Part shown: positions 1 to 10,314 of the stretch, in pieces
Numbering within the stretch: the stretch's first letter is position 1
Layout of the letters: the number at the start of each line of letters is the position of its first letter
Made by a program: the position numbers and the translations under genes
Assembly (NCBI RefSeq): GCF_003050785.1
Contig: NZ_QAOH01000002.1
Coordinates: 1 to 64,000, forward strand
Origin: Celeribacter persicus
GTDB lineage: Bacteria > Pseudomonadota > Alphaproteobacteria > Rhodobacterales > Rhodobacteraceae
DNA: 64,000 nucleotides
Direction of reading: 5' to 3'
Notes under the pieces: model-generated
Seen by the model: the letters and a program-made list of their open reading frames with translations, nothing else
Told to the model about the DNA's origin: nothing
Database searches by the model: none

Positions 1-1
1 T

Positions 2-70
2 ATCATCGGCGCAATCTTTTGCCTGACCGGCATGGCGATCATCTTGGTCGCCCCTATGCTTCAGAAGTAA
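2..70 (+). CDS. C-terminal fragment of a small membrane protein, possibly UPF0060/YnfA family
   Basis: Only the last 22 codons lie in the window, ending at TAA 68-70. They encode a strongly hydrophobic helix with the pattern G-A-x-x-C-L-x-G-x-A-I-I-L, then a short polar tail. This resembles the last transmembrane helix of UPF0060 (YnfA-like) proteins, which end in a similar GAALCLAGAAIIL-type segment. The family assignment is inference from a short piece; another small transporter would also fit. The stop lies 29 bases before the first CRISPR repeat, so this gene is the left neighbour of the CRISPR locus. Confidence 0.5.
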   Translation: MIGAIFCLTGMAIILVAPMLQK

Positions 71-99
71 CCTGCGGTCTCAATCGGGCGGTTACTCTT
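71..99 (+). other. 29-base gap before the CRISPR array; the only candidate leader on the crRNA 5' side
   Basis: This segment separates the stop codon of the upstream gene from repeat 1. If crRNAs are read on the plus strand, as pairing with the tracrRNA implies, the leader should be here. It is very short and shows no clear -35/-10 pair. Any leader function would have to extend into the 3' end of the flanking gene. Confidence 0.4.
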
Positions 100-1388
100 G
101 TTGCGGCTGGACCTCGAATTCTGAACTGCTAATCTGCTCTTTCCGCCTTGTGTTGCTCCGCATAGTTGCGGCTGGACCTCGAATTCTGAACTGCTAATCT
201 TCGCACACCGCTAAGCCGCCCAAAGGATTAGTTGCGGCTGGACCTCGAATTCTGAACTGCTAATCTATTTTTCGTCAGGTGTCGCGCACCCTCGGTGTTG
301 CGGCTGGACCTCGAATTCTGAACTGCTAATCTGCGAATTATGAAAAGCTGTCGCCTGTCGTCGTTGCGGCTGGACCTCGAATTCTGAACTGCTAATCTAT
401 AACCGAGGTCGATCATCGCGCCATGCGCGTTGCGGCTGGACCTCGAATTCTGAACTGCTAATCTGTGAGGACACCGAAGTCGTTCCGACGTTCAGTTGCG
501 GCTGGACCTCGAATTCTGAACTGCTAATCTTGTGACCTTCACCGAGGGTATGAGCGAGGAGTTGCGGCTGGACCTCGAATTCTGAACTGCTAATCTACTT
601 TCAATACGGCTAAGTGCTTCTCCATAGTTGCGGCTGGACCTCGAATTCTGAACTGCTAATCTTGCGCTCAAGTGCCTCTGTATCATCTGACAGTTGCGGC
701 TGGACCTCGAATTCTGAACTGCTAATCTAAAGTGGGAGATCATTCAGGCCGCAGAGGTGTTGCGGCTGGACCTCGAATTCTGAACTGCTAATCTGTTTGG
801 CGGCCTTGATCGGCTTCGAGGACTGTTGCGGCTGGACCTCGAATTCTGAACTGCTAATCTTTACTACGGCAAAGAAGCGACGGATCATGAGTTGCGGCTG
901 GACCTCGAATTCTGAACTGCTAATCTTCATGCCATAACAAGCGGCAATCACTTTCTGTTGCGGCTGGACCTCGAATTCTGAACTGCTAATCTACTGCCCA
1001 TCACGGCCCGCTACGATCACGGGTTGCGGCTGGACCTCGAATTCTGAACTGCTAATCTTATCGCCAAAACCGTCCATCGTGACAGGGTGTTGCGGCTGGA
1101 CCTCGAATTCTGAACTGCTAATCTCTCCAGTGGCCACTGAACGAAACTACGCTAGTTGCGGCTGGACCTCGAATTCTGAACTGCTAATCTGCCAAACGCG
1201 CGCGCATGTTCTGAACCCATGTTGCGGCTGGACCTCGAATTCTGAACTGCTAATCTGACGGTCACAATGATGATACCGCCGATGTTGTTGCGGCTGGACC
1301 TCGAATTCTGAACTGCTAATCTTCTCAAACCACTGTCGCAGCGCTTCCTCAGGTTGCGGCTGGACCTCGAATTCTGAACTGCTAATCT
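100..1388 (+). CRISPR. Type II-C CRISPR array, 20 repeats and 19 spacers
   Basis: Twenty copies of a 36-base repeat (starting GTTGCGGCTGGACC and ending GAACTGCTAATCT) begin at 100, 165, 231 and then every 66 bases to 1353. All copies read as identical, including both terminal ones. Spacers are 30 bases, except the first (136-164), which is 29. No spacer repeats another. The plus-strand repeat pairs with the anti-repeat at 6097-6126, so mature crRNAs are plus-strand, opposite to cas9-cas1-cas2. Each repeat ends in TGC-TAATCT, an extended -10-like element, as in the Neisseria II-C systems where every repeat starts its own crRNA. Uniform repeats suggest a recently active array. Spacer targets cannot be identified from this window. 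Confidence 0.98.
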
Positions 1389-1397
1389 CGATCTCCG

Positions 1398-1427
1398 CTC
1401 AAGGCCTTGTAAATGCAAGGTTTTGAG
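1398..1427. other. Hairpin between the array and cas2, where the two transcripts converge
   Basis: The arms 1398-1409 (CTCAAGGCCTTG) and 1416-1427 (CAAGGTTTTGAG) form a 12-pair stem with two adjacent G-U wobbles and a 6-base loop. The structure lies 9 bases after the last repeat and 35 bases beyond the cas2 stop. It may end or stabilise either transcript. No T-tract follows on either strand, so it is not a classical intrinsic terminator. Confidence 0.5.
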
Positions 1428-1461
1428 TGGGGGCGAGACGCGCATTTCCAAGCATATTCCA

Positions 1462-1806
1462 TCAAAACAGCACCAATTGTTCCGGGTTTTTTCTGGCAGC
1501 CCTGCGGCCCTGATCCGAGAAATGAACGATATCACGGTATTGGCGGTCGGTAAAATTCAGAATCTGGATGTCGCCTTTTTCGGGCAAATTGCGCTCGATT
1601 CGGTTGATCCGGGTCTGAAATGCGTCCTTGCCGTTGACGAAACGCGCGTACACGGAAAACTGACTGCGCTCGAATCCTTCATCGAGCAGAAAGTTGCGAA
1701 ACTCCGTGGCGGCTTTGCGCTGAGGTTTGGTGTCAGTGGGCAGGTCGAACATTACGAGTATCCACATGATCCGGTATCCTGAAAGATGGGCAGGGCGATC
1801 CGTCAT
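1462..1806 (-). CDS. cas2: CRISPR-associated endoribonuclease Cas2
   Basis: This 114-residue protein has the Cas2 ferredoxin-like core. It begins near residue 14 with M-W-I-L-V-M-F-D-L-P-T, where D21 is the conserved metal-site aspartate of the first beta strand, and it continues with the family's F-L-L-D-E-G-F and Q-x-S-V-Y motifs. Cas2 bridges two Cas1 dimers in the spacer integration complex. The start at 1806 overlaps the cas1 stop in an ATGA, indicating translational coupling. Met14 is a possible alternative start that would give a more typical N terminus. It is the last gene of the cas operon, and no csn2 or cas4 follows, as expected for subtype II-C. Confidence 0.95.
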   Translation of the reverse strand: MTDRPAHLSGYRIMWILVMFDLPTDTKPQRKAATEFRNFLLDEGFERSQFSVYARFVNGKDAFQTRINRIERNLPEKGDIQILNFTDRQYRDIVHFSDQGRRAARKNPEQLVLF

Positions 1807-2714
1807 GATCCAAGCCCCGCGAGTGTGAGAGGATCGGGCGGCGTGGGCAGGGCGAGTGACAGTTTCCCGGTCTCGAAACTCTGACCCAGAGAGGTGGCGA
1901 GTTTGCCCAGCGCCACGGAAACCGGTGATTGCCCGTCCCCCAAAGGCAGATCGAGTGCGATCAGGCGGGCAAGAGCCTGTTTTGCCTCGCTGTTTACTTC
2001 CGTGCCGTTGCGCTCAGCGAGGCCACGCACGGCACAATCGACCAGAGGGCGAAAGGGCTCCATGAGATCGTCGGCGAGGGCGAAGGCATTGCCGCGATTG
2101 GAATGATGCAGACCGATTGTCGGATGAAGACCGGCGGCGACAATGGCACGGGCCGTCGCGGCGCGCAGGACGGTGTAGCCATAATTCAGAAGTGCATTTA
2201 TATCCGGCGCGTCACGGTCCCGGCGGAAATCCTCTCCCAACATCCGGGGCCAGTAATAGCGGGCGGCCTGAGCTTCGAGATTGGTGCTGTCGCCGCTGGT
2301 GACCTGTCTGGCCATCATGTCGAGCGGGGCAGGCGCCGCCGCATGGGCGTCCAAGGCTGCGGCCTGCATCCTGATCTTGGCGACGATCACCTGTTTCCAG
2401 GCTTGTTTCATGAACGGCGCTTTCGCCTGCCATTGTGCCCGCAGGCGTGCGCCTTGGGCATGGTGCCCTTCGAGTGGCATGAGGACCGAACGCGGAGCGT
2501 GGTTGGGGCTGCAAAAGACCACGGGCGCGCCACGATCCGCCAGTTCCGCAAGGAGTGAGGCCGAACAGGTCGTGCCATGTGCATGGACAATGACCGCGGT
2601 GATTTCGTCAAGCGGGATACGACCGACTTCCGTCCCCTGTTCGGACACTTTCAGAAAGCCACGTTCCCGTGACAAATGCCGCCCGTCGCTGGAAATATCA
2701 ATAATACGATCCAA
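1803..2714 (-). CDS. cas1: CRISPR-associated integrase Cas1
   Basis: This 303-residue protein matches type II Cas1. The likely active-site residues are E147 (in the N-L-E-A-Q-A-A-R-Y-Y-W helix), H203 and D216; the last two keep the 13-residue spacing known from other Cas1 proteins. Cas1 catalyses insertion of new spacers together with Cas2. The start is probably TTG at 2714: an in-frame TGA lies two codons upstream and a GGAG ribosome site lies 8 bases before the TTG, while the nearby ATG is in another frame and closes after a few codons. The gene lies 58 bases after cas9 and overlaps cas2 by 4 bases. Confidence 0.95.
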   Translation of the reverse strand: MDRIIDISSDGRHLSRERGFLKVSEQGTEVGRIPLDEITAVIVHAHGTTCSASLLAELADRGAPVVFCSPNHAPRSVLMPLEGHHAQGARLRAQWQAKAPFMKQAWKQVIVAKIRMQAAALDAHAAAPAPLDMMARQVTSGDSTNLEAQAARYYWPRMLGEDFRRDRDAPDINALLNYGYTVLRAATARAIVAAGLHPTIGLHHSNRGNAFALADDLMEPFRPLVDCAVRGLAERNGTEVNSEAKQALARLIALDLPLGDGQSPVSVALGKLATSLGQSFETGKLSLALPTPPDPLTLAGLGS

Positions 2715-2772
2715 TACTCATACTCCACACCCTTGGAAGTATGTCATAAATTCGTGATTCGCGCGAGATCGC

Positions 2773-5700
2773 TTAAACTTTCGGTGGACCGGGGTCACGA
2801 ACGCGGCCGATTTCATCAACGAGGATGCGGCGTAGATTGGCTTTGACCATTGGGCTGGCTCCAATTTGAATGAAGCGAAACTGATCATTCTTGTCTCGAT
2901 TGCGCGCATCGGCGTTGGCTTCCTGATGAGGTGCAATATACAGACCGTTGCTCACATGCATGGATTGCACATAGCCAATGATTGTTTGCCCATCTCGCTC
3001 CAGCACCACCATATCCTTTTTAAAAATGCGCAGAAGCCGTTTGGCGGCAGGGTGAGGGCGTTTCTCGATCCCGGCATGGGCCTCAAAAGTTGTCACCACT
3101 TGAGGTTTGACCTTTCCATCAGGTAGCTTCCACAGCTCATAGCAATGATTGCTGTCGCCCTTATAGGCCTTGAGCGGTGTGCCTTTCTCCGTTTGTCCGA
3201 CCTCCACCCGGGCCGAGCGTTGCAAGGTTTCGACAAGACGCACACGGCGGATGCCCTGATAGGGGCCTTCCTTGGCTGCGAATTGGCGCAAGGCCTCCTC
3301 GAACGCCTTTCCTTCCTTATCTTTGGTCGCGACGGAGAGAGCTTTTTGCAATTGCGGATCGCGGATGTTCTTTCCCTTGGTCGTGACTTCGATGTCGGAG
3401 GGTTTCAACGACATGAGAGGTGTGCGACTGACAACGGTCATATCGTCGACGATCCCGTAAGCGGTATCGTTGTGGAGCTGTCCCGCCGTGCTGTCACGCC
3501 CGGATTTTCGCCCTTCGATGTCGATCCGACCGTGGTCGGCGCGGTGGCTGACGACGATTTTCTCCAGTTGGATGGCAATGTCCGAGCGAAAATGCTCCCA
3601 GGGCTCGGGCGTGTCGCGCGCGATTAGTTCGGCGGATTGCGCGGCTTTCTCGCCAAGGCCTGCGGCTTTGCTGATCCGGTTGATCAGGCTGCGGTCGGTG
3701 GCGGCGACCACGGCGGCGTCAATCGCGTGGTGGCGATGGTCGGTGCGGTTCTTCGCCTTCACCGCGCCTCGGTCCTTGTCGCTCAGAAGTGAATTCAGCC
3801 CCCAGTGCCGCCGCAGCATTTCGGTCATGCGACCGGGCACGACCCAGACATGGCCGCCTTCGGTATAGAGCGTGTCGAGATAGGCGCGCGAAATGCGCGA
3901 GAGGTATTGCGTGTCGACCAGAGCGCGGTCGAGGAAATCACTCTCGCCCTCGAACCGTTCCATCGCATCGGGGCCGAAGCGCCATTTCTTATTGTCTGAG
4001 AGGTTCTTGAGGTTGGCCTCGATCTTTGCCCAACGTCCGGCGTTGTCGCCCCAGGCCTCGTAAGGCGTCTGGTCGCGTTTCTCGCGATTGGCTTCTTTCA
4101 GGCAGAGTGTGCGGTTAGCGAAACTGTCATCCAAAGTGCGCGAATAGGGCAGGATATGGTCGATGTCACACTCTCCGTTGAGCACCATCGTCGCCGTAAT
4201 CACCTCGCCCGTATAGGGGCAACAGCGCGGACCTATCGCAGGACCGAGTTCTTCAAACAGGCGCAGCAGCATCCGGTTGTGGCCGGTGTCTTTCACGCCA
4301 TGTTCGCGCAGGGTCTCACTCCGGCGGATCGCATCCGCCGTGGTGTTGCGGATGCGCGTCATCGCCTCGCGTTTCTGAGCATCCGATTGCTTCAATTCCC
4401 GCGCCAGTTCCACCACGATCTGATCGGGTTTGCCGTAGACCTCGATGATCTTGTTCACCAGCCGACGCAACTGGTTCAACCCGATATGCACGGTCGGATT
4501 GGTGATCCGGCCATAGCGGGTGATCTCGTCGTCCTTCTCGTCGTAAGTGCCGGGAATGACATGACGGTCGAGCACTTCGCCGTAATAGGGCAGGGTGTCG
4601 AGACATTCCCCCGTGCGCTGATCCGAATGGTGCCAGCCACAGGCCGCAACCGCCTCCGCATAGGTCACGACACCGGCTTTGAGCCGATCCAGAATGCGTT
4701 GCGTCGCGGTCAGCCCGAGGCGGCCATAGCCTTCCGGCAGGTGCGCGTTCGCGGTCTTTTGGGCGTGCTCCGCATCAAGACCATATCGCTCCATGAGCCA
4801 GCTCACGAGATCGGCAAACTCATCTTCGCTCTGCACCTTGCGAATGCGCGAAATCACCTCCCACTGCGCCTGCCAGTCGAGTTTCGACCAGTTGGGGCCA
4901 AAAGCCTCGGGATGGATCATCACGGAGCGCACGGGGTCGCAGGCGATGGCATCGCGCACACCGGTCTCAAGGGTAAACCGCTCCCCATCACGCAGCTTCA
5001 ACACTTTGCCCAAGGCTGTGAGCGAGAGTTTCATGGAGCTCAGCGATTTGGCGGGTTTCTTGTTGTCGATCGCATGGATGATCCGATCGCGTTCTTCCAG
5101 CGTCAAAGGCCGCGTTTCCCGGCCGTCCGCTGTGACCCGCAATTGATTGACAGTTTCGTACAGCACACGACGCTGGGTGAGGGGATGGGCTTTCGGCAAA
5201 CGCTCTTCGGCGGTGAAGAGGCACAGTCCCACTTTCGGCTCCTTCAAAGGCCGCTGGTAGAAAATCTTCTCGAACACCAGATCGCGCAGATCGTCGGTCA
5301 GAACATCCGGGTGATAAGCGGACTGCGTTTCCCAAAGCTCGTGAAATTCTTCCTCAAGATGCCGACGATCCGGGTAGAAATCGTACCCCGATTCCTCTTT
5401 CGCATCCGGCCCGCCACGTGCGGCGACCGAAAGCCGGGTGCGCACCGTCGGCACATGGCGCGGGTCACTGGCACGCTGCCGCCGCATATGCAGGAATTCG
5501 CCGTAGGTCCGCGCTCTGGCGTCATGAAGCGCATCGTCCAGCCGACGTGTCGCATCCTTGATCTTGCCGCTTTCATTGTCGCCCCGGTCCGTCTTGCGGT
5601 TCGATTTGAACCCGCGCCGTTGATTGAGATGAAAGAGCGCTCGACCGAAGTGTGTGAGCGGCAGCGCCTCGTCCAGCCCCTTGGCGCGCAACGTGTAGGG

Positions 5701-5997
5701 ATCGAGCAATTCGAGTGCTTTGGCCTCTGTGGGGTCGGCTGGCATCAGGCCGGATTTGGCCAGCACTTTCATCAAGGTGGCGCGGCGGCGCAGATAACGA
5801 TCCCGGCGCCGCCGCATCGCCCGTGCGGCGCGACGATCTACCGCAAGAGAGGCTTTGGATTTTGGGTCGCGCCCGTCGGAGAAAATCCGAACGCCACCGT
5901 CAATGACGCCAATGATGCGCGCGGACGCGCCCTGGCCGTCGGTTTCATAAAGCCACCAGCCAATCGAATTCGTGCCAATATCCAGACCAAGACGCAT
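2773..5997 (-). CDS. cas9: CRISPR-associated endonuclease Cas9, type II-C
   Basis: The 1074-residue effector cuts both strands of target DNA under crRNA:tracrRNA guidance. The RuvC-I motif (L-D-I-G-T-N-S-I-G-W, D6) opens the protein, followed by an arginine-rich bridge helix around residues 53-78, RuvC-II (V-V-E-L-A-R-E, E530), the HNH motif (C-D-I-D-H-I-L-P, H614) and RuvC-III (H-H-A-I-D-A, H757 and D760). All expected catalytic residues are present. The length fits compact II-C enzymes, and the sequence resembles roseobacter Cas9 proteins such as that of Dinoroseobacter shibae (recalled, not searched). I chose ATG 5997, after AGGGGGTAAG; an upstream in-frame extension to 6051 has no ribosome site and would precede the RuvC-I strand. 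Confidence 0.98.
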   Translation of the reverse strand: MRLGLDIGTNSIGWWLYETDGQGASARIIGVIDGGVRIFSDGRDPKSKASLAVDRRAARAMRRRRDRYLRRRATLMKVLAKSGLMPADPTEAKALELLDPYTLRAKGLDEALPLTHFGRALFHLNQRRGFKSNRKTDRGDNESGKIKDATRRLDDALHDARARTYGEFLHMRRQRASDPRHVPTVRTRLSVAARGGPDAKEESGYDFYPDRRHLEEEFHELWETQSAYHPDVLTDDLRDLVFEKIFYQRPLKEPKVGLCLFTAEERLPKAHPLTQRRVLYETVNQLRVTADGRETRPLTLEERDRIIHAIDNKKPAKSLSSMKLSLTALGKVLKLRDGERFTLETGVRDAIACDPVRSVMIHPEAFGPNWSKLDWQAQWEVISRIRKVQSEDEFADLVSWLMERYGLDAEHAQKTANAHLPEGYGRLGLTATQRILDRLKAGVVTYAEAVAACGWHHSDQRTGECLDTLPYYGEVLDRHVIPGTYDEKDDEITRYGRITNPTVHIGLNQLRRLVNKIIEVYGKPDQIVVELARELKQSDAQKREAMTRIRNTTADAIRRSETLREHGVKDTGHNRMLLRLFEELGPAIGPRCCPYTGEVITATMVLNGECDIDHILPYSRTLDDSFANRTLCLKEANREKRDQTPYEAWGDNAGRWAKIEANLKNLSDNKKWRFGPDAMERFEGESDFLDRALVDTQYLSRISRAYLDTLYTEGGHVWVVPGRMTEMLRRHWGLNSLLSDKDRGAVKAKNRTDHRHHAIDAAVVAATDRSLINRISKAAGLGEKAAQSAELIARDTPEPWEHFRSDIAIQLEKIVVSHRADHGRIDIEGRKSGRDSTAGQLHNDTAYGIVDDMTVVSRTPLMSLKPSDIEVTTKGKNIRDPQLQKALSVATKDKEGKAFEEALRQFAAKEGPYQGIRRVRLVETLQRSARVEVGQTEKGTPLKAYKGDSNHCYELWKLPDGKVKPQVVTTFEAHAGIEKRPHPAAKRLLRIFKKDMVVLERDGQTIIGYVQSMHVSNGLYIAPHQEANADARNRDKNDQFRFIQIGASPMVKANLRRILVDEIGRVRDPGPPKV

Positions 5998-6027
5998 CTT
6001 ACCCCCTAAAAGTGTAAAAGTTAATGA

Positions 6028-6055
6028 CGGATAGTTTTCAGCGGAACTCAATCAA
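6028..6055 (-). promoter_or_regulatory. cas9: Candidate cas9-cas1-cas2 promoter
   Basis: On the minus strand a TTGATT -35-like hexamer (6055-6050) is followed after 16 bases by TATCCG (6033-6028). It lies 31 bases upstream of the cas9 start and nearly back to back with the tracrRNA -35 element. The -10 match is only moderate, so this is a prediction. Confidence 0.4.
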
Positions 6056-6062
6056 TTGCAAC

Positions 6063-6091
6063 TTGAATTCAAAAGGCGGCTGTGGAATAAT
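6063..6091 (+). promoter_or_regulatory. Candidate tracrRNA promoter
   Basis: TTGAAT (6063-6068) and AATAAT (6086-6091) are separated by exactly 17 bases, and the predicted start falls at about 6097-6099, right where the anti-repeat begins. The spacing and position make this a convincing sigma-70-type promoter. Confidence 0.65.
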
Positions 6092-6096
6092 TTTTC

Positions 6097-6180
6097 CAGT
6101 TCAGAATTCGCGGTCGAGCCGTTAACAAGCTCGAAGTAGCACCACATTAAAACGCGTCCTACGGGGCGCGTTTTGTTTTT
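6097..6180 (+). ncRNA. tracrRNA (trans-activating CRISPR RNA)
   Basis: Bases 6097-6126 are an anti-repeat. They match the reverse complement of the CRISPR repeat over 14 uninterrupted bases (6097-6110) and then with two single mismatches and one small bulge through GGTC, AGCCG and AAC. The guide-binding duplex can therefore cover about 29 of 36 repeat bases. The anti-repeat is followed by a short single-stranded or weakly folded segment (6127-6148) and a strong terminator hairpin with a T-tract. The gene diverges from cas9. At about 84 nt the RNA is short compared with many II-C tracrRNAs. The 5' and 3' ends are inferred from the promoter and terminator. Confidence 0.9.
6149..6180 (+). terminator. 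Intrinsic terminator of the tracrRNA gene
   Basis: AAAACGCGTCC (6149-6159) pairs with GGGGCGCGTTTT (6163-6174), and a T-rich run to 6180 follows. The lower stem is perfect, with one U-G pair higher up. It probably also forms the 3' hairpin of the tracrRNA bound by Cas9. Confidence 0.85.
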
Positions 6181-6990
6181 GAATTATGGCCTGTTTCTAC
6201 CCCCGTATGTCTTCTCCATGTGACTCCATGTGACCGGGTTCTTTGACAAAGCCTTGCGTTCACCATTTTCCGGCAGGGTCACTGTCTGACTTCTGCGTGA
6301 TGTGATTCGCCGCGCTGTTTTGCATTGTTCCCGCTTTTGCGCAAATTGGGATTTCTGTCCGTGATTGGTTCTCCCGGTTGATGAGTGCCTTGTTTTTGAC
6401 ATATTTGGGCGCAGTCCGTTCAGGTCATCGTCCGTAATGCCTTCCTTTAGGTCAATTGCACTGGAAAATACCCTGTGAGGTTTCGGTGAATTCTTCTTAA
6501 CTTATTCATAAAAATGGTAATTATTTTCATTGCGTAGGAGGGCTGTCCTCCGGGGATGTGCTTAAATTCTGATCGCTCTGAGGTATTTGCGCCATCCCAA
6601 CGCCATATTTGAGCACATTTTCGCCATTTTCCCTGTTGCTTGACCATGGTTTTGACATATCCAGAAAGAGCCCAACTGGGGGGCACAAAGGCCACGGGGG
6701 CGGCCGCGTAAAGATGTCCGATGGTGAAGGATGTCGATCAGCGTGACCGATGTGGAAAATAGGTCGGGTCTCCGATCTGCTGCTGCTTGAGGTGATGAAA
6801 CGCCGATGACCATGGTGCTGCGCCGTGGAGTCGGGGATTTCTGGTCGTGTCTTTCCCATCATGGATGGCCCGTCAGGGCCTGTTCGCGTGTGCGGACTTT
6901 TGATTTTGGATGGTTACGGTGCGCCCGATCCCATCCTGTGTGTGACGAGGATGCCCGTTCCCGGTGAGCGGTTGCGCAAGGAGAGAGACG
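6181..6990. other. 810-base region without a convincing gene
   Basis: This stretch lies between the tracrRNA terminator and the RTX gene. Short open frames exist on both strands (for example minus strand 6184-6402 and 6447-6695), but none has a family resemblance, a good ribosome site or alphaproteobacterial codon bias. The base composition is mixed and locally AT-rich near 6470-6530. The promoter of the RTX gene should lie towards its right end. It may be decayed or imported DNA bordering the CRISPR locus. Confidence 0.5.
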
Positions 6991-9900
6991 ATGACGAAAC
7001 GGGTATACGATGATCGCTGCGATCCGGCTGATCCGAACCCTGAGACTCCCACGACCGATGGGATTGTCGAAGGTACATCGGGAAACGACTATATCGACAC
7101 CGCTTACACTGGCGATCCAGAAGGCGACATGATCGACGCGGGCGACAACGCAGACGGTAATGATGACGATATCGTTATTGCCGGCGGGGGTGACGATACG
7201 GTTCTGGCCGGTGAAGGCGACGATGTCGTTTATGGCGACAGCGGGGAAGACTCTCCCTATGCGGCACAGGACGCGGACCCGCTGGTGCTGTCCTACAGCA
7301 ATTATATCACAGGAAGTGAAACTGCATCTGGCAGCAATAATGCGCACGCCGGTGACAGTGCCGAGTACAGCAACGTTACCACTCTGGAAGACGGTACTGT
7401 CGTCAATGCCCGGCTGGTTCTTGTTTCGACTTCCGATCCAGCGCTCGATGTCGATCTGGCATACAAATCCGGCGCTGAAATCCTGCTGAACGGCAACAAT
7501 TCTGTTAGCCAGGGTGGCATGACTGCAACCTTCCGTCTTGAATTCTACAATGCGGAAACCGGTGAACCGATTTCGATCAACTCCACCGCGACTTTCAACG
7601 ACATCGACAGCACGCGCAACGACGGCCTTGATCCCGAAGTTGTCACGGTGGATGCTTCGTCCTTCACCGCCTTCGGTGTCAGCGGCGACAGTTCCCTGCT
7701 TATCGAGAATGCCGATGGTACGGTGACGGCATCGGGGACGGAACCCAACAGCCCGAGCGATCAGGACGCCTGGTTCTCTGCAGCTTTCGAAGGCCAGAGT
7801 TCCATCACCTTCACCCTGACGGCCCGCGATGTGAACTCCGGCTATTCGATGAACGGTGATCTGATTGACGATGCCGTTGTGACCCCCATTGCGCCGGGCA
7901 ACGATTATCTCGACGGCGGCGCCGGTAACGACACTCTCTACGGCGAGGGGGGAGACGACACGCTGCTGGGCGGTGCCGATAACGACACCCTCTATGGCGG
8001 GGAAGGTGATGATACGTTGCAGGGCGGCATAGGCGCCGACGTGCTTTATGGCGATCAGGGGGAAAGTACGGAAGAGAGCGGGCGTCAAGCCACGATCACC
8101 ATCGACAGTCAGGCCGGGGCTTACGACGGCATGCTGGTTCTGAAAACTGTTGCCGAAGATGGTTCTGAGCGGTTTTTTGTTCTTGCGAAAAGCTATGACG
8201 ATTCAATCGGCAACACATACACTGTCAATCTTGAGGAAGGTGAAACCGTCTATGTCGGAATCACCAGCCCGGAAGGCACATTTTACTCCGATAGCGAGAA
8301 TGCTCAGAGCACAAACAATGATGACGGTTCGGTAACTTATAATTTCGAAGACATCGCAGGTCTTGGCGACCAGGATTTCAAAGATGTTGTCGTCACAGTC
8401 TCAGTTCAGGAGCCTGAGGACGCAAGTACTGCTGGCGGTGACGATCATCTCGACGGCGGCGCCGGTAACGACACCCTCTACGGCGAGGGGGGAGACGATA
8501 CACTGGTGGGTGGCACTGGCACCAACTATCTCCACGGCGGTGCTGGTGACGACACCTTTATCGGTGGCGACGGTGCGGATACGTTCCAAGGGGGCGCGGG
8601 TCAGGACAATATCGACTATTCGGGTTCTGATGAAGCCGTATATGTCAATCTCTCTACGAGCACACTGTCCGGCGGCGATGCCGACAATGACACGATTCAA
8701 GGCGGTATCGACGGGGTGATCGGCTCCGAATATGACGACACGCTGATCGGTTTCGATCATCAGGGCACCACGGAAGAAGACACCTATACCAACGAATTCT
8801 GGGGCATGGGCGGCGATGACACCATCTCCGGTCGTGGTGGCGACGACTATCTCGATGGTGGCGACGGAAACGACGTTATCAAGGGCGGTGCCGGTGACGA
8901 TGTGATCATCGGCGGCGCGGATGGTACGCCGGATCGCGGCTACGGTCCCTATCTCGCCGACGATGCCGAGCCGGACAATGACAAGGACACGCTCTACGGC
9001 GGTGCGGGCAACGACACCATCTATGGTGGTGACGATGCCGACTATATCGACGGCGGCGCGGATGACGATTACATCGACGGCGGTTTCGACGACGATACGA
9101 TCCTCGGCGGCACTGGTGACGACACGATTATCGGTGGCGAAGGTTCCGATACGATTGACGGTGGTGACGGCGACGACACCATTTATGGCGGTCTCGATCC
9201 CGCCTACCCGGACAGCCTGAACGTCCCGGACGACGAAAACGATTACGAAGTCGAAAACGGCAAGGACGTAATCGACGGCGGCGCCGGCAACGACACGATC
9301 TACGGTCAGGACGATGACGACCTGATCTATGGCGGAGATGGCGACGATTACATCGACGGCGGCATCGACGACGATACGATTTACGCGGGCGCGGGCACTG
9401 ACACGGTCCATGGCGGCGAAGACGAGGATACGATCTACGGCGGCGGCGACAATGACGTACTCGACGGTGGCGACGATCAGGATACGATCTACGTCACTTT
9501 CACCGACGTGACCTCTGGCGTCTACAACACCACCGTGCATGGTGGCGACGGCGGCGTCGATTGGGATACGCTCGACCTGACCGCGCTTCTGGACGATGGT
9601 TGGGTGATCACCGATCATGTGCAGAACACCGACAGCGACGGCAACGGGTTCGATGGCGAGATTCAACTCTTCAACGCCGCAACCAATGAGCATGCCAACA
9701 TCAACTACACCAATATCGAGGAAATCATCCCCTGCTTTACCCCCGGCACGCTGATCGCGACGCCGAAGGGAGAGGTGAAGGTGGAAGAGCTGAAGATCGG
9801 CGACCGGGTCATCACCCGCGACAACGGTATTCAGCAAATCCGCTGGATCGGGACGAAGACCCTCTCCGGTGCCGACCTCTCGGCGCGTTCCGAACTGAAT

Positions 9901-10314
9901 CCGGTGCTGATCCGTCAGGGCGCGCTTGGGGCCGGTCTGCCGGAACGTGATATGATGGTGTCGCCGAACCACCGGATGCTGGTGTCGAACGAAAAGGCCG
10001 CGCTGCTCTTTGACGAGCACGAGGTTCTGGTTGCGGCCAAACACCTGACCCGGATGGAAGGTGTGGATGTGATCGAGGCCTCCGGCCTGACCTATATCCA
10101 CGTGATGTTCGACCGTCATGAGGTGGTTCTGTCGGACGGCACCTGGTCGGAAAGCTTCCAGCCCGGCGATTACACGCTCTCCGGCATTGGTGACGAGGCC
10201 CGCGAAGAACTCTTCGCGCTCTTCCCGGAGCTGGCCGAGGTGTCGACCCGAGGTGGTTTCTCCGCCGCGCGCCGCATCCTGCGCAAACACGAGGCGGAGC
10301 TTCTGGTTTCCTGA
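6991..10314 (+). CDS. RTX (haemolysin-type calcium-binding) protein with C-terminal Hint domain
   Basis: The 1107-residue acidic protein carries blocks of GGxGxDxLx-type calcium-binding nonapeptides at about residues 20-88, 302-356, 482-540 and 600-850. Two non-RTX inserts (about 88-302 and 357-481) look beta-rich and of unknown fold. A Hint (hedgehog/intein-like) domain starts at Cys915 in the C-F-T-P-G-T motif and runs to about 1060. Such proteins are normally exported by type I secretion and bind calcium outside the cell; the Hint domain may cleave or modify the chain. There is no N-terminal signal peptide and no type I secretion gene nearby. The ATG at 6991 follows AAGGAG by 7 bases, which favours it over the in-frame start at 6964. 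Confidence 0.9.
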   Translation: MTKRVYDDRCDPADPNPETPTTDGIVEGTSGNDYIDTAYTGDPEGDMIDAGDNADGNDDDIVIAGGGDDTVLAGEGDDVVYGDSGEDSPYAAQDADPLVLSYSNYITGSETASGSNNAHAGDSAEYSNVTTLEDGTVVNARLVLVSTSDPALDVDLAYKSGAEILLNGNNSVSQGGMTATFRLEFYNAETGEPISINSTATFNDIDSTRNDGLDPEVVTVDASSFTAFGVSGDSSLLIENADGTVTASGTEPNSPSDQDAWFSAAFEGQSSITFTLTARDVNSGYSMNGDLIDDAVVTPIAPGNDYLDGGAGNDTLYGEGGDDTLLGGADNDTLYGGEGDDTLQGGIGADVLYGDQGESTEESGRQATITIDSQAGAYDGMLVLKTVAEDGSERFFVLAKSYDDSIGNTYTVNLEEGETVYVGITSPEGTFYSDSENAQSTNNDDGSVTYNFEDIAGLGDQDFKDVVVTVSVQEPEDASTAGGDDHLDGGAGNDTLYGEGGDDTLVGGTGTNYLHGGAGDDTFIGGDGADTFQGGAGQDNIDYSGSDEAVYVNLSTSTLSGGDADNDTIQGGIDGVIGSEYDDTLIGFDHQGTTEEDTYTNEFWGMGGDDTISGRGGDDYLDGGDGNDVIKGGAGDDVIIGGADGTPDRGYGPYLADDAEPDNDKDTLYGGAGNDTIYGGDDADYIDGGADDDYIDGGFDDDTILGGTGDDTIIGGEGSDTIDGGDGDDTIYGGLDPAYPDSLNVPDDENDYEVENGKDVIDGGAGNDTIYGQDDDDLIYGGDGDDYIDGGIDDDTIYAGAGTDTVHGGEDEDTIYGGGDNDVLDGGDDQDTIYVTFTDVTSGVYNTTVHGGDGGVDWDTLDLTALLDDGWVITDHVQNTDSDGNGFDGEIQLFNAATNEHANINYTNIEEIIPCFTPGTLIATPKGEVKVEELKIGDRVITRDNGIQQIRWIGTKTLSGADLSARSELNPVLIRQGALGAGLPERDMMVSPNHRMLVSNEKAALLFDEHEVLVAAKHLTRMEGVDVIEASGLTYIHVMFDRHEVVLSDGTWSESFQPGDYTLSGIGDEAREELFALFPELAEVSTRGGFSAARRILRKHEAELLVS

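Follow-up and report, generated by a model that had tools for sequence, protein, structure and literature searches.

This study concerns a type II-C CRISPR-Cas9 locus (CRISPR, clustered regularly interspaced short palindromic repeats) at the start of contig NZ_QAOH01000002.1 (C2) of Celeribacter persicus, assembly GCF_003050785.1; the first 64,000 nucleotides of that contig are the window analysed here. As read from the DNA, this is an ordinary, apparently intact type II-C CRISPR-Cas9 locus of an alphaproteobacterium. Each repeat appears to carry its own promoter, the native array of 47 repeats appears to have been split by an insertion sequence (IS) of the IS66 type, and a stem-loop behind the last repeat would block antisense transcription of the cas genes. 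We hold this reading as a whole with high confidence, and its parts, orientation signals, split with target-site duplication, covarying stem-loop and two exact spacer targets are legible in the letters themselves.

Components of the locus

The window holds the following parts, with lengths in amino acids (aa) or nucleotides (nt):

100-1388, plus strand: leader-proximal part of the CRISPR array, 20 identical 36-nt repeats and 19 spacers
1462-1806, minus strand: cas2, 114 aa, matching PF09827 (9e-16) and PADLOC Cas2_II (5e-43)
1803-2714, minus strand: cas1, 303 aa, TTG start, matching PF01867 (4e-35) and PADLOC Cas1_II (1e-101)
2773-5997, minus strand: cas9, 1074 aa, with HNH_4, RuvC_III and Cas9_a domains, matching PADLOC Cas9 (7e-90)
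6063-6091, plus strand: promoter-like TTGAAT-17-AATAAT with TG, 9 of 12 consensus positions
6096-6180, plus strand: gene for the trans-activating CRISPR RNA (tracrRNA), anti-repeat at 6097-6126
6148-6175, plus strand: terminator-like hairpin, followed by TTTTT (to 6180)

The type II-C assignment draws on three features: a Cas9 with RuvC and HNH nuclease residues, cas1 and cas2 in the cas9 operon without csn2 or cas4, and a tracrRNA with an anti-repeat to the repeat. The Cas9 start is taken as the ATG at 5997 (an upstream TTG would yield 1092 aa). Residues D6, E530, D613, H614, N637, H757 and D760 are invariant in all 18 sequences aligned (the window and 17 relatives), and the top match among solved structures is itself a Cas9 (9ar4_A, 1.5e-56). 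No csn2 or cas4 adjoins the operon: from the tracrRNA gene to the open reading frame (ORF) at 6964 there are only ORFs of 72-111 aa, and the far side of the array, on contig C16, was judged by eye from ORFs of at least 110 aa at C16:1700-9000, without a family search.

A first-pass annotation of this DNA had described a type II-C locus with a 1074-residue Cas9 whose nuclease motifs are intact, and both points are borne out by the invariant residues, the Pfam and PADLOC matches and the gene content. Its further claim that nothing required seems to be missing holds for the list of parts and fails for the array, of whose 47 repeats 27 lie outside the window, beyond the IS66-type split.

Relatives used for comparison

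A Cas9 match was found in 2 of 20 genomes of the genus and, at E 1e-50, in 29 of 394 genomes of the family. At least 37 Pseudosulfitobacter plasmid records match the array, and the one inspected (CP070878.2) bears an annotated cas9. Two genomes have two Cas9 matches each, G233 (L065, L066) and G258 (L050, L073); one Cas9 of G258 is 78% identical to the window Cas9 and the other 35%.

The close set consists of 29 arrays, i.e., that of the window and those of 28 relatives with a parsed array; 31 arrays were parsed, and L052 and L072 were left out. L052 had been considered a copy of L008, which comparison showed it is not, while L051 is a copy of L009 and L056 of L011. The distant set was chosen from wider matches and contains 60 loci, 48 of them with a parsable array, among these L134 with its presumed Neisseria-type repeat; nine were left out for having no array and three for spurious or partial repeats (L090, L101, L139).

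Direction of transcription

The tracrRNA is probably a plus-strand transcript, because the promoter-like and terminator-like signals flank the anti-repeat on that strand; it is their placing that counts and not their number. Pairing does not settle the matter. The repeat:tracrRNA duplex has a predicted energy of -45.6 kcal/mol when both RNAs come from the plus strand, -40.4 when both come from the minus strand, and -17.5 and -19.6 for mixed strands. The minus/minus combination therefore also pairs, and pairing alone leaves the strand undecided.

The repeats carry a second signal. The window repeat, GTTGCGGCTGGACCTCGAATTCTGAACTGCTAATCT, occurs there in 20 perfect copies, each of which ends in TAATCT after TGC, an extended -10-like box. 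The consensus repeat ends in TAnnnT in all 29 close arrays, with variable middle bases, and among the 48 distant arrays the ending is TAnnnT in 45 and TAnnnC in three (four were trimmed by one base). Array and cas9 run in opposite directions in all 29 close loci, and in all 48 distant ones if the TAnnnT/TAnnnC end marks the strand of the CRISPR RNA (crRNA). In type II-C systems a -10 box inside the repeats is described as starting crRNAs (PMC3656092).

Given the signals flanking the tracrRNA and the -10-like repeat ends, it is well supported by sequence that crRNAs would be read on the plus strand, against cas9-cas1-cas2. The first-pass annotation had placed the crRNAs in the same direction, which stands, on the ground that the anti-repeat pairs only with plus-strand repeat RNA, which does not, given the minus/minus duplex. 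It had also likened the layout to that of Neisseria and Campylobacter; the likeness is real, yet opposition of array and cas operon is the general II-C arrangement (PMC3936727; PMC12080349) and not a special feature.

In the mechanism that we propose, the -10 element at the 3' end of each repeat would start a crRNA in the next spacer, on the plus strand. The tracrRNA, divergent from cas9, would pair with the repeat and, together with RNase III, set the crRNA 3' end, after which Cas9 would cut DNA.

A conserved stem-loop in the leader

Two features lie between the array and cas2:

1389-1461, plus strand: leader (spacer-adding side), between the last repeat and the cas2 stop
1393-1432, plus strand: leader stem-loop, 18 pairs, 4-nt loop, -31.8 kcal/mol, z -5.3

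The young end of the array is placed at cas2 because it is the first repeats, not the last, that degenerate: the first repeat is off consensus in 9 of 29 arrays and the last in none (p 0.002; contig ends truncate several of the arrays). L052, outside these counts, also has a first repeat with three mismatches and a perfect last one. New spacers would thus enter at the cas2-proximal repeat (1353-1388), and the published II-C acquisition end agrees with this leader position (PMC12080349; PMC6008519).

A stem-loop lies directly behind the last repeat in 29/29 close arrays, starting at most 8 nt from the integration repeat. A strand-neutral hairpin score averages 11.5 in these leaders and never falls below 8. 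Shuffles average 5.1 and do not exceed 8, sequence further downstream averages 5.6, and the 5' flank, readable in 23 arrays, averages 5.2. In the leader alignment (A2), 78.5% of 522 cells are paired (shuffles 59.7, sd 1.3), 122 cells are double-changed (shuffles 42) and covariation is 0.565 (shuffles 0.221), with none of 500 shuffles reaching any of these values. When the partner is slid by 1-3 columns, covariation is 0.09-0.26. The leaders of L052 and L072, which are outside the counts, bear the stem-loop as well.

A covariance model of the 29 leaders was run over the window and 66 other loci and gave 14 matches at E<0.01, all of them leaders. Ten are on the crRNA strand (the window, L018, L080, L081, L085, L096, L099, L113, L116 and L117) and four on the reverse strand (the window, L080, L081 and L116). 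Nine of the 66 other loci are thus matched, each at its leader, and most are unmatched at this threshold; L018 and L081 are single-repeat remnants that still bear the stem-loop. On these comparisons, the leader stem-loop is conserved, with strong covariation, at the acquisition end of the array.

The first 5 nt behind the last repeat of the close leaders have the consensus nGATC, which is exact in 15/29; its G and its T are retained in 90% or more. We regard it as a candidate leader anchoring motif.

Function of the stem-loop

Most likely, the stem-loop halts transcription coming from the repeats before it enters cas2 in the antisense direction. This is the simplest function because the promoter of the last repeat would start an RNA at the base of the stem, directed toward cas2; the stem-loop would terminate or block that transcription before it passed through cas2-cas1-cas9.

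The distant leaders point the same way. Under a strict terminator rule (a stem with at least 4 G-C pairs, then a U-run), 17 of 48 distant leaders have a terminator on the crRNA strand and one on the other strand, while shuffles give 0.6% and 0%. The crRNA strand also folds more stably in 27/29 close and 38/48 distant leaders, and its stems contain more G.T than A.C pairs (41 to 7 in the close set, 23 to 4 in the distant set), a bias suggestive of RNA on that strand. The window stem-loop is itself a GC-rich, stable hairpin whose only U-run, UUUU, is inside the 3' arm and does not directly follow the stem. By its sequence it is not a canonical intrinsic terminator, and its position and likeness suggest terminator ancestry.

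Several observations weigh against our interpretation, of the stem-loop and of the locus as a whole. The strict rule finds a terminator in only 3/29 close leaders, the window not among them, and a simple terminator scan of the window omits the leader stem-loop. The lowest close hairpin score (8, in L060) equals the shuffle maximum, and pairs with any change on both sides number 14 versus 12.7, a value reached by 124/500 shuffles and so not above them. Of the distant leaders, 31/48 score above the best of 20 shuffles and 17/48 do not, and eight score 5 or less (L089, L094, L108, L122, L131, L136, L137, L138). Base composition accounts for part of the G.T excess (in the close set, swapping the arms yields 413 to 172; Fisher p 0.03), and in L116 the reverse strand matches the covariance model slightly better than the crRNA strand. 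Promoter-like matches in 6.4 kb number 2 versus 2.1 in shuffles, so the tracrRNA promoter is at chance level; terminator-like matches number 6 versus 6.8, the tracrRNA hairpin having the most pairs of the six. The evidence for transcription, its direction and the stem-loop is all drawn from DNA sequence, and the join between contigs C16 and C2, described below, relies on a draft assembly.

The strongest alternative to a transcription stop is that the stem-loop serves spacer integration: it would act at the level of DNA, marking the growing end as a place for Cas1-Cas2 to dock or for the DNA to bend, and termination would be incidental. Its constant closeness to the integration repeat in the close loci fits such a role, as do its persistence beside the single-repeat remnants L018 and L081 and the 17 distant leaders that do not beat their shuffles, by which a terminator is not universal. 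However, the sequence of the stem varies freely while its pairing is kept, unlike a protein-binding site, and in many distant leaders a stem plus U-run is confined to the crRNA strand. The covariance model lists both strands for 8 loci (E<=1); the crRNA strand outscores its reverse in seven of these and is outscored in L116. We therefore consider a DNA-level signal unlikely, but worth keeping in mind.

It is less likely again that the stem-loop belongs to the cas mRNA, where, on the minus strand, it would stabilise or terminate the 3' end of cas9-cas1-cas2. It does lie about 30 nt past the cas2 stop on that strand, and both strands can fold. However, strict minus-strand terminators occur in 0/29 close and 1/48 distant loci, the greater stability is on the crRNA strand in the proportions given above, and the excess of G.T over A.C on that strand goes beyond what swapped arms give.

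The transcription stop may also be more general. Possibly, with a chance somewhat short of even, II-C loci widely share a structured RNA behind the last repeat that insulates the cas operon from antisense transcription; about a third of the distant loci sampled have it as a simple intrinsic terminator, and the window's branch has traded the U-run for a long covarying stem. If this insulator reading is right, a II-C locus, its last repeat being always a new promoter aimed at cas2, could hardly function well without such a guard. The element in the window's branch, having given up the U-run, must then work in another way, for example by RNase III cleavage, through Rho or in a spacer integration role.

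Spacer targets

The window spacers are 30 nt long in 18 cases and 29 nt in one. Three of them have targets or a candidate:

531-560, plus strand: spacer 7
597-626, plus strand: spacer 8
729-758, plus strand: spacer 10

Spacer 10 has an exact match in one of the 20 genus genomes (G005), in a prophage tail gene with GTA_TIM and Phage-tail_3 domains, and also in two IMG/VR contigs with the same flank. Spacer 7 matches exactly in a second genus genome (G013), in a HepT-like ORF that neighbours one for a nucleotidyltransferase. For spacer 8 there is a weak candidate in a TraG_N gene (L195), also in G013, with 5 mismatches and E 0.18; read backwards, it codes YGEALSRIES versus FGEALSRIES in that gene (9/10 identical). 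We kept this candidate because it lies in the genus, in a conjugation gene, with 9/10 residues in the gene's frame. Seven other whole-spacer alignments in the family reach 7-8 of 9-10 residues in the best of six frames, so the margin is small.

On the side of the protospacer adjacent motif (PAM), the exact targets read GGAGCTTG and TGATTTCC and the weak spacer 8 target reads GGTTTTGG. On that side the two exact protospacers show GGAG and TGAT, with G at +2 and not at +3. A spacer of L019, whose system is 82% identical, has a 3-mismatch target with AGGCGGAC. All four protospacers share G at +2, and G at +3 is not common to them. The two exact sites give a hint that G at +2 is a PAM constraint. 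The PAM-interacting domain should lie in the C-terminal 250 residues of Cas9, which are 69% identical to L019. It had been stated that neither the targets nor the PAM could be derived from this DNA: exact matches in the genus for spacers 10 and 7, with the weak candidate for spacer 8, overturn the first part for some of the spacers, and the second remains true, two exact protospacers being too few.

Searches of wider databases added little. Phage records held nothing credible for the window's 19 spacers or for the C16 stretch. The 101 spacers of seven close relatives matched 100 phage records, and of the 40 rows listed 36 are one L009 spacer against T7-like phages, mostly in the DNA polymerase gene; these were not used for the PAM. 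Against plasmids, the 40 records listed, of 55, match window sequence only in the repeats or at the element end, and relatives' spacers gave one weak record. In 394 family genomes, the best E of a window spacer outside its own array was 3.9e-4 among the matches listed. Of 29 loci fetched, seven align over the full spacer length with 5-6 mismatches; we attribute these to chance, and their +2 bases (G, G, C, C, T, A, T) follow no G rule. In IMG/VR, where 6 of the 19 spacers were scanned by exact pieces, spacers 19, 12, 18 and 5 were unmatched, and a 16-mer of spacer 2 found in 14 stretches was rejected, none being close across the whole spacer.

The 26 whole older spacers, on C16, have no target in the 20 genus genomes: six matches with E 0.02-0.06 in five genomes were set aside, as none had 6 or fewer mismatches over the whole spacer at the loci checked. 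Young and old spacers with targets thus number 3/19 (the weak one included) and 0/26 (p 0.07), and we claim no difference.

These targets also bear on whether the locus has lost adaptation or interference and is no longer active. An element sits in its array and Cas9 is rare in the genus; against this, all genes are open, the catalytic residues are kept, 47/47 repeats are identical, and genomes of the genus contain exact targets for two of the younger spacers. Loss of activity is accordingly improbable.

Interruption of the array

The array had been annotated as complete with 20 repeats, which it is not. The window begins at the very start of contig C2, in a draft of 94 contigs, and opens with an element end:

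1-95, plus strand: right end of an IS66-type element, whose ynfA passenger gene ends at about 69-70 and whose terminus is ...GGGCGGTTAC
96-103: target-site duplication TCTTGTTG, 8 bp, formed by the last 4 nt of the broken spacer and the first 4 nt of a repeat

Contig C16 has 27 more perfect repeats at 130-1877, identical to those of the window. There, the last repeat is followed by 26 nt of spacer, then TCTTGTTG, then the other element end, GTAAGCGCCCGATTGATGCCGCC. On C2, TCTTGTTG stands directly after the element end, and its final four bases open the repeat at 100, so the broken spacer measures 26+4 = exactly 30 nt across the two contigs. Elements of the IS66 family duplicate 8 bp of their target; here terminal inverted repeats (GTAAGCGCCCGATTGATGCCGC / GTAACCGCCCGATTGAGACCGC, the latter read by hand from window 74-95) accompany TCTTGTTG on both sides. 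IS66 transposase genes and YnfA are annotated in a near copy of the element on Thioclava nitratireducens plasmid NZ_CP019438.1; in the C. persicus assembly, contig ends interrupt the element.

Because of the shared TCTTGTTG, the 30-nt broken spacer and the 27 identical repeats, the native array is read as one of 47 repeats, cut inside one spacer by the IS66-type element, with the 27 older repeats on C16 and the 20 younger ones on C2. A tRNA-Leu gene is found near the old end of the array. That the C16 repeats are instead a separate second array, with the window array complete and merely starting beside an old element, is very improbable: the two contigs are indeed not joined in the assembly, but both stretches face ends of one element type, share the duplication and identical repeats and complete a 30-nt spacer, and no cas-like gene was seen by eye among the C16 ORFs described above, which had no family search.

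Only the broken spacer should have been lost, because each repeat bears its own promoter element, and both halves of the array should still yield crRNAs.

Interruption of II-C loci by IS elements is not unique to the window. In L308 (Pseudosulfitobacter plasmid CP070878.2), a decayed II-C locus with degenerate repeats has IS66 genes between two stretches that match cas1; cas9 is annotated, and a tracrRNA-like sequence and a leader hairpin-like stretch are still recognisable. In the distant array of L106, a repeat is interrupted by some 1.4 kb of other DNA, which splits the array (8573-9974, with the cas9 strand as plus). As to the element itself, the same 95 bp as window 1-95 also opens contigs C33 and C49 of this genome (L244, L245); several copies of IS66-type elements with ynfA occur in the genome and break its assembly. 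Identical spacers recur within single arrays of L070, L019 and L009 (one spacer five times in L070), which suggests duplication inside arrays.

Two observations concern the rest of the window. The large ORF at 6964-10314, adjoining the locus, has aspartate- and glycine-rich repeats, presumably of the kind found in RTX proteins, and part of it matches Hint domain proteins of Sulfitobacter plasmids. An Rfam scan of the window gave no family reaching its gathering score; with a relaxed E-value, rnk_pseudo over the tracrRNA gene scored 23 bits against a gathering score of 55 and was taken as chance.

Comparison with known systems

The window Cas9 is 26% identical to that of L134, whose repeat we take to be of the Neisseria type, and in this it is unlike the Neisseria II-C systems. 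It is also unlike those of Campylobacter and Neisseria in that its array is split by an IS element. The Campylobacter jejuni and Neisseria systems have what is read or proposed for the window locus too: a promoter in the 3' end of the repeat, an array opposed to the cas operon and a crRNA 3' end formed by tracrRNA and RNase III (PMC3656092; PMC3936727).

Another counterpart is the metagenomic EH CRISPR-Cas9 system (II-C clade IX; PMC10281378). It shares the order cas9-cas1-cas2, a Cas9 of similar size (1070 aa), 36-bp repeats, a tracrRNA gene upstream of cas9 that points away from it and has a promoter and a terminator, and an array for which the same reading direction as that of the tracrRNA is inferred; the nearest homologues of EHCas9 are alphaproteobacterial. 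Its PAM is NGG (best NGGDTNN), compared with GGAG and TGAT at the window protospacers, so that the G at +2 is shared and that at +3 is not. By this likeness of description, the window Cas9 may fall in the EHCas9 clade.

Two published features resemble the leader stem-loop. Terminators and guide hairpins upstream of II-C arrays act against extraneous crRNA (PMC12080349) and are likewise RNA hairpins at the array border that limit unwanted transcription; they lie upstream of the first (oldest) repeat, whereas the window stem-loop lies downstream of the last, at the acquisition end. In Riemerella anatipestifer II-C (PMC5006608), a long leader palindrome lies between cas2 and the array, described in the text available for one species and without the covariation, strand and termination analyses made here. 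We found no account of a conserved II-C stem-loop or terminator behind the last repeat in the literature text available, which leaves subscription journals mostly uncovered, so novelty is unproven; Gasiunas 2020 (PMC7606464) gave no match to a word search of its available text.

Significance

The exact matches reveal encounters of this system with phage and with other mobile or accessory DNA in its genus; they also provide first, weak constraints on its PAM. The split array is a natural experiment on repeat promoters: a single leader promoter would leave the older 27 repeats cut off, whereas promoters in the repeats would lose one spacer only. The stem-loop offers a concrete handle on how type II-C systems keep their repeat promoters off their own cas genes, and perhaps tells what marks the acquisition end.

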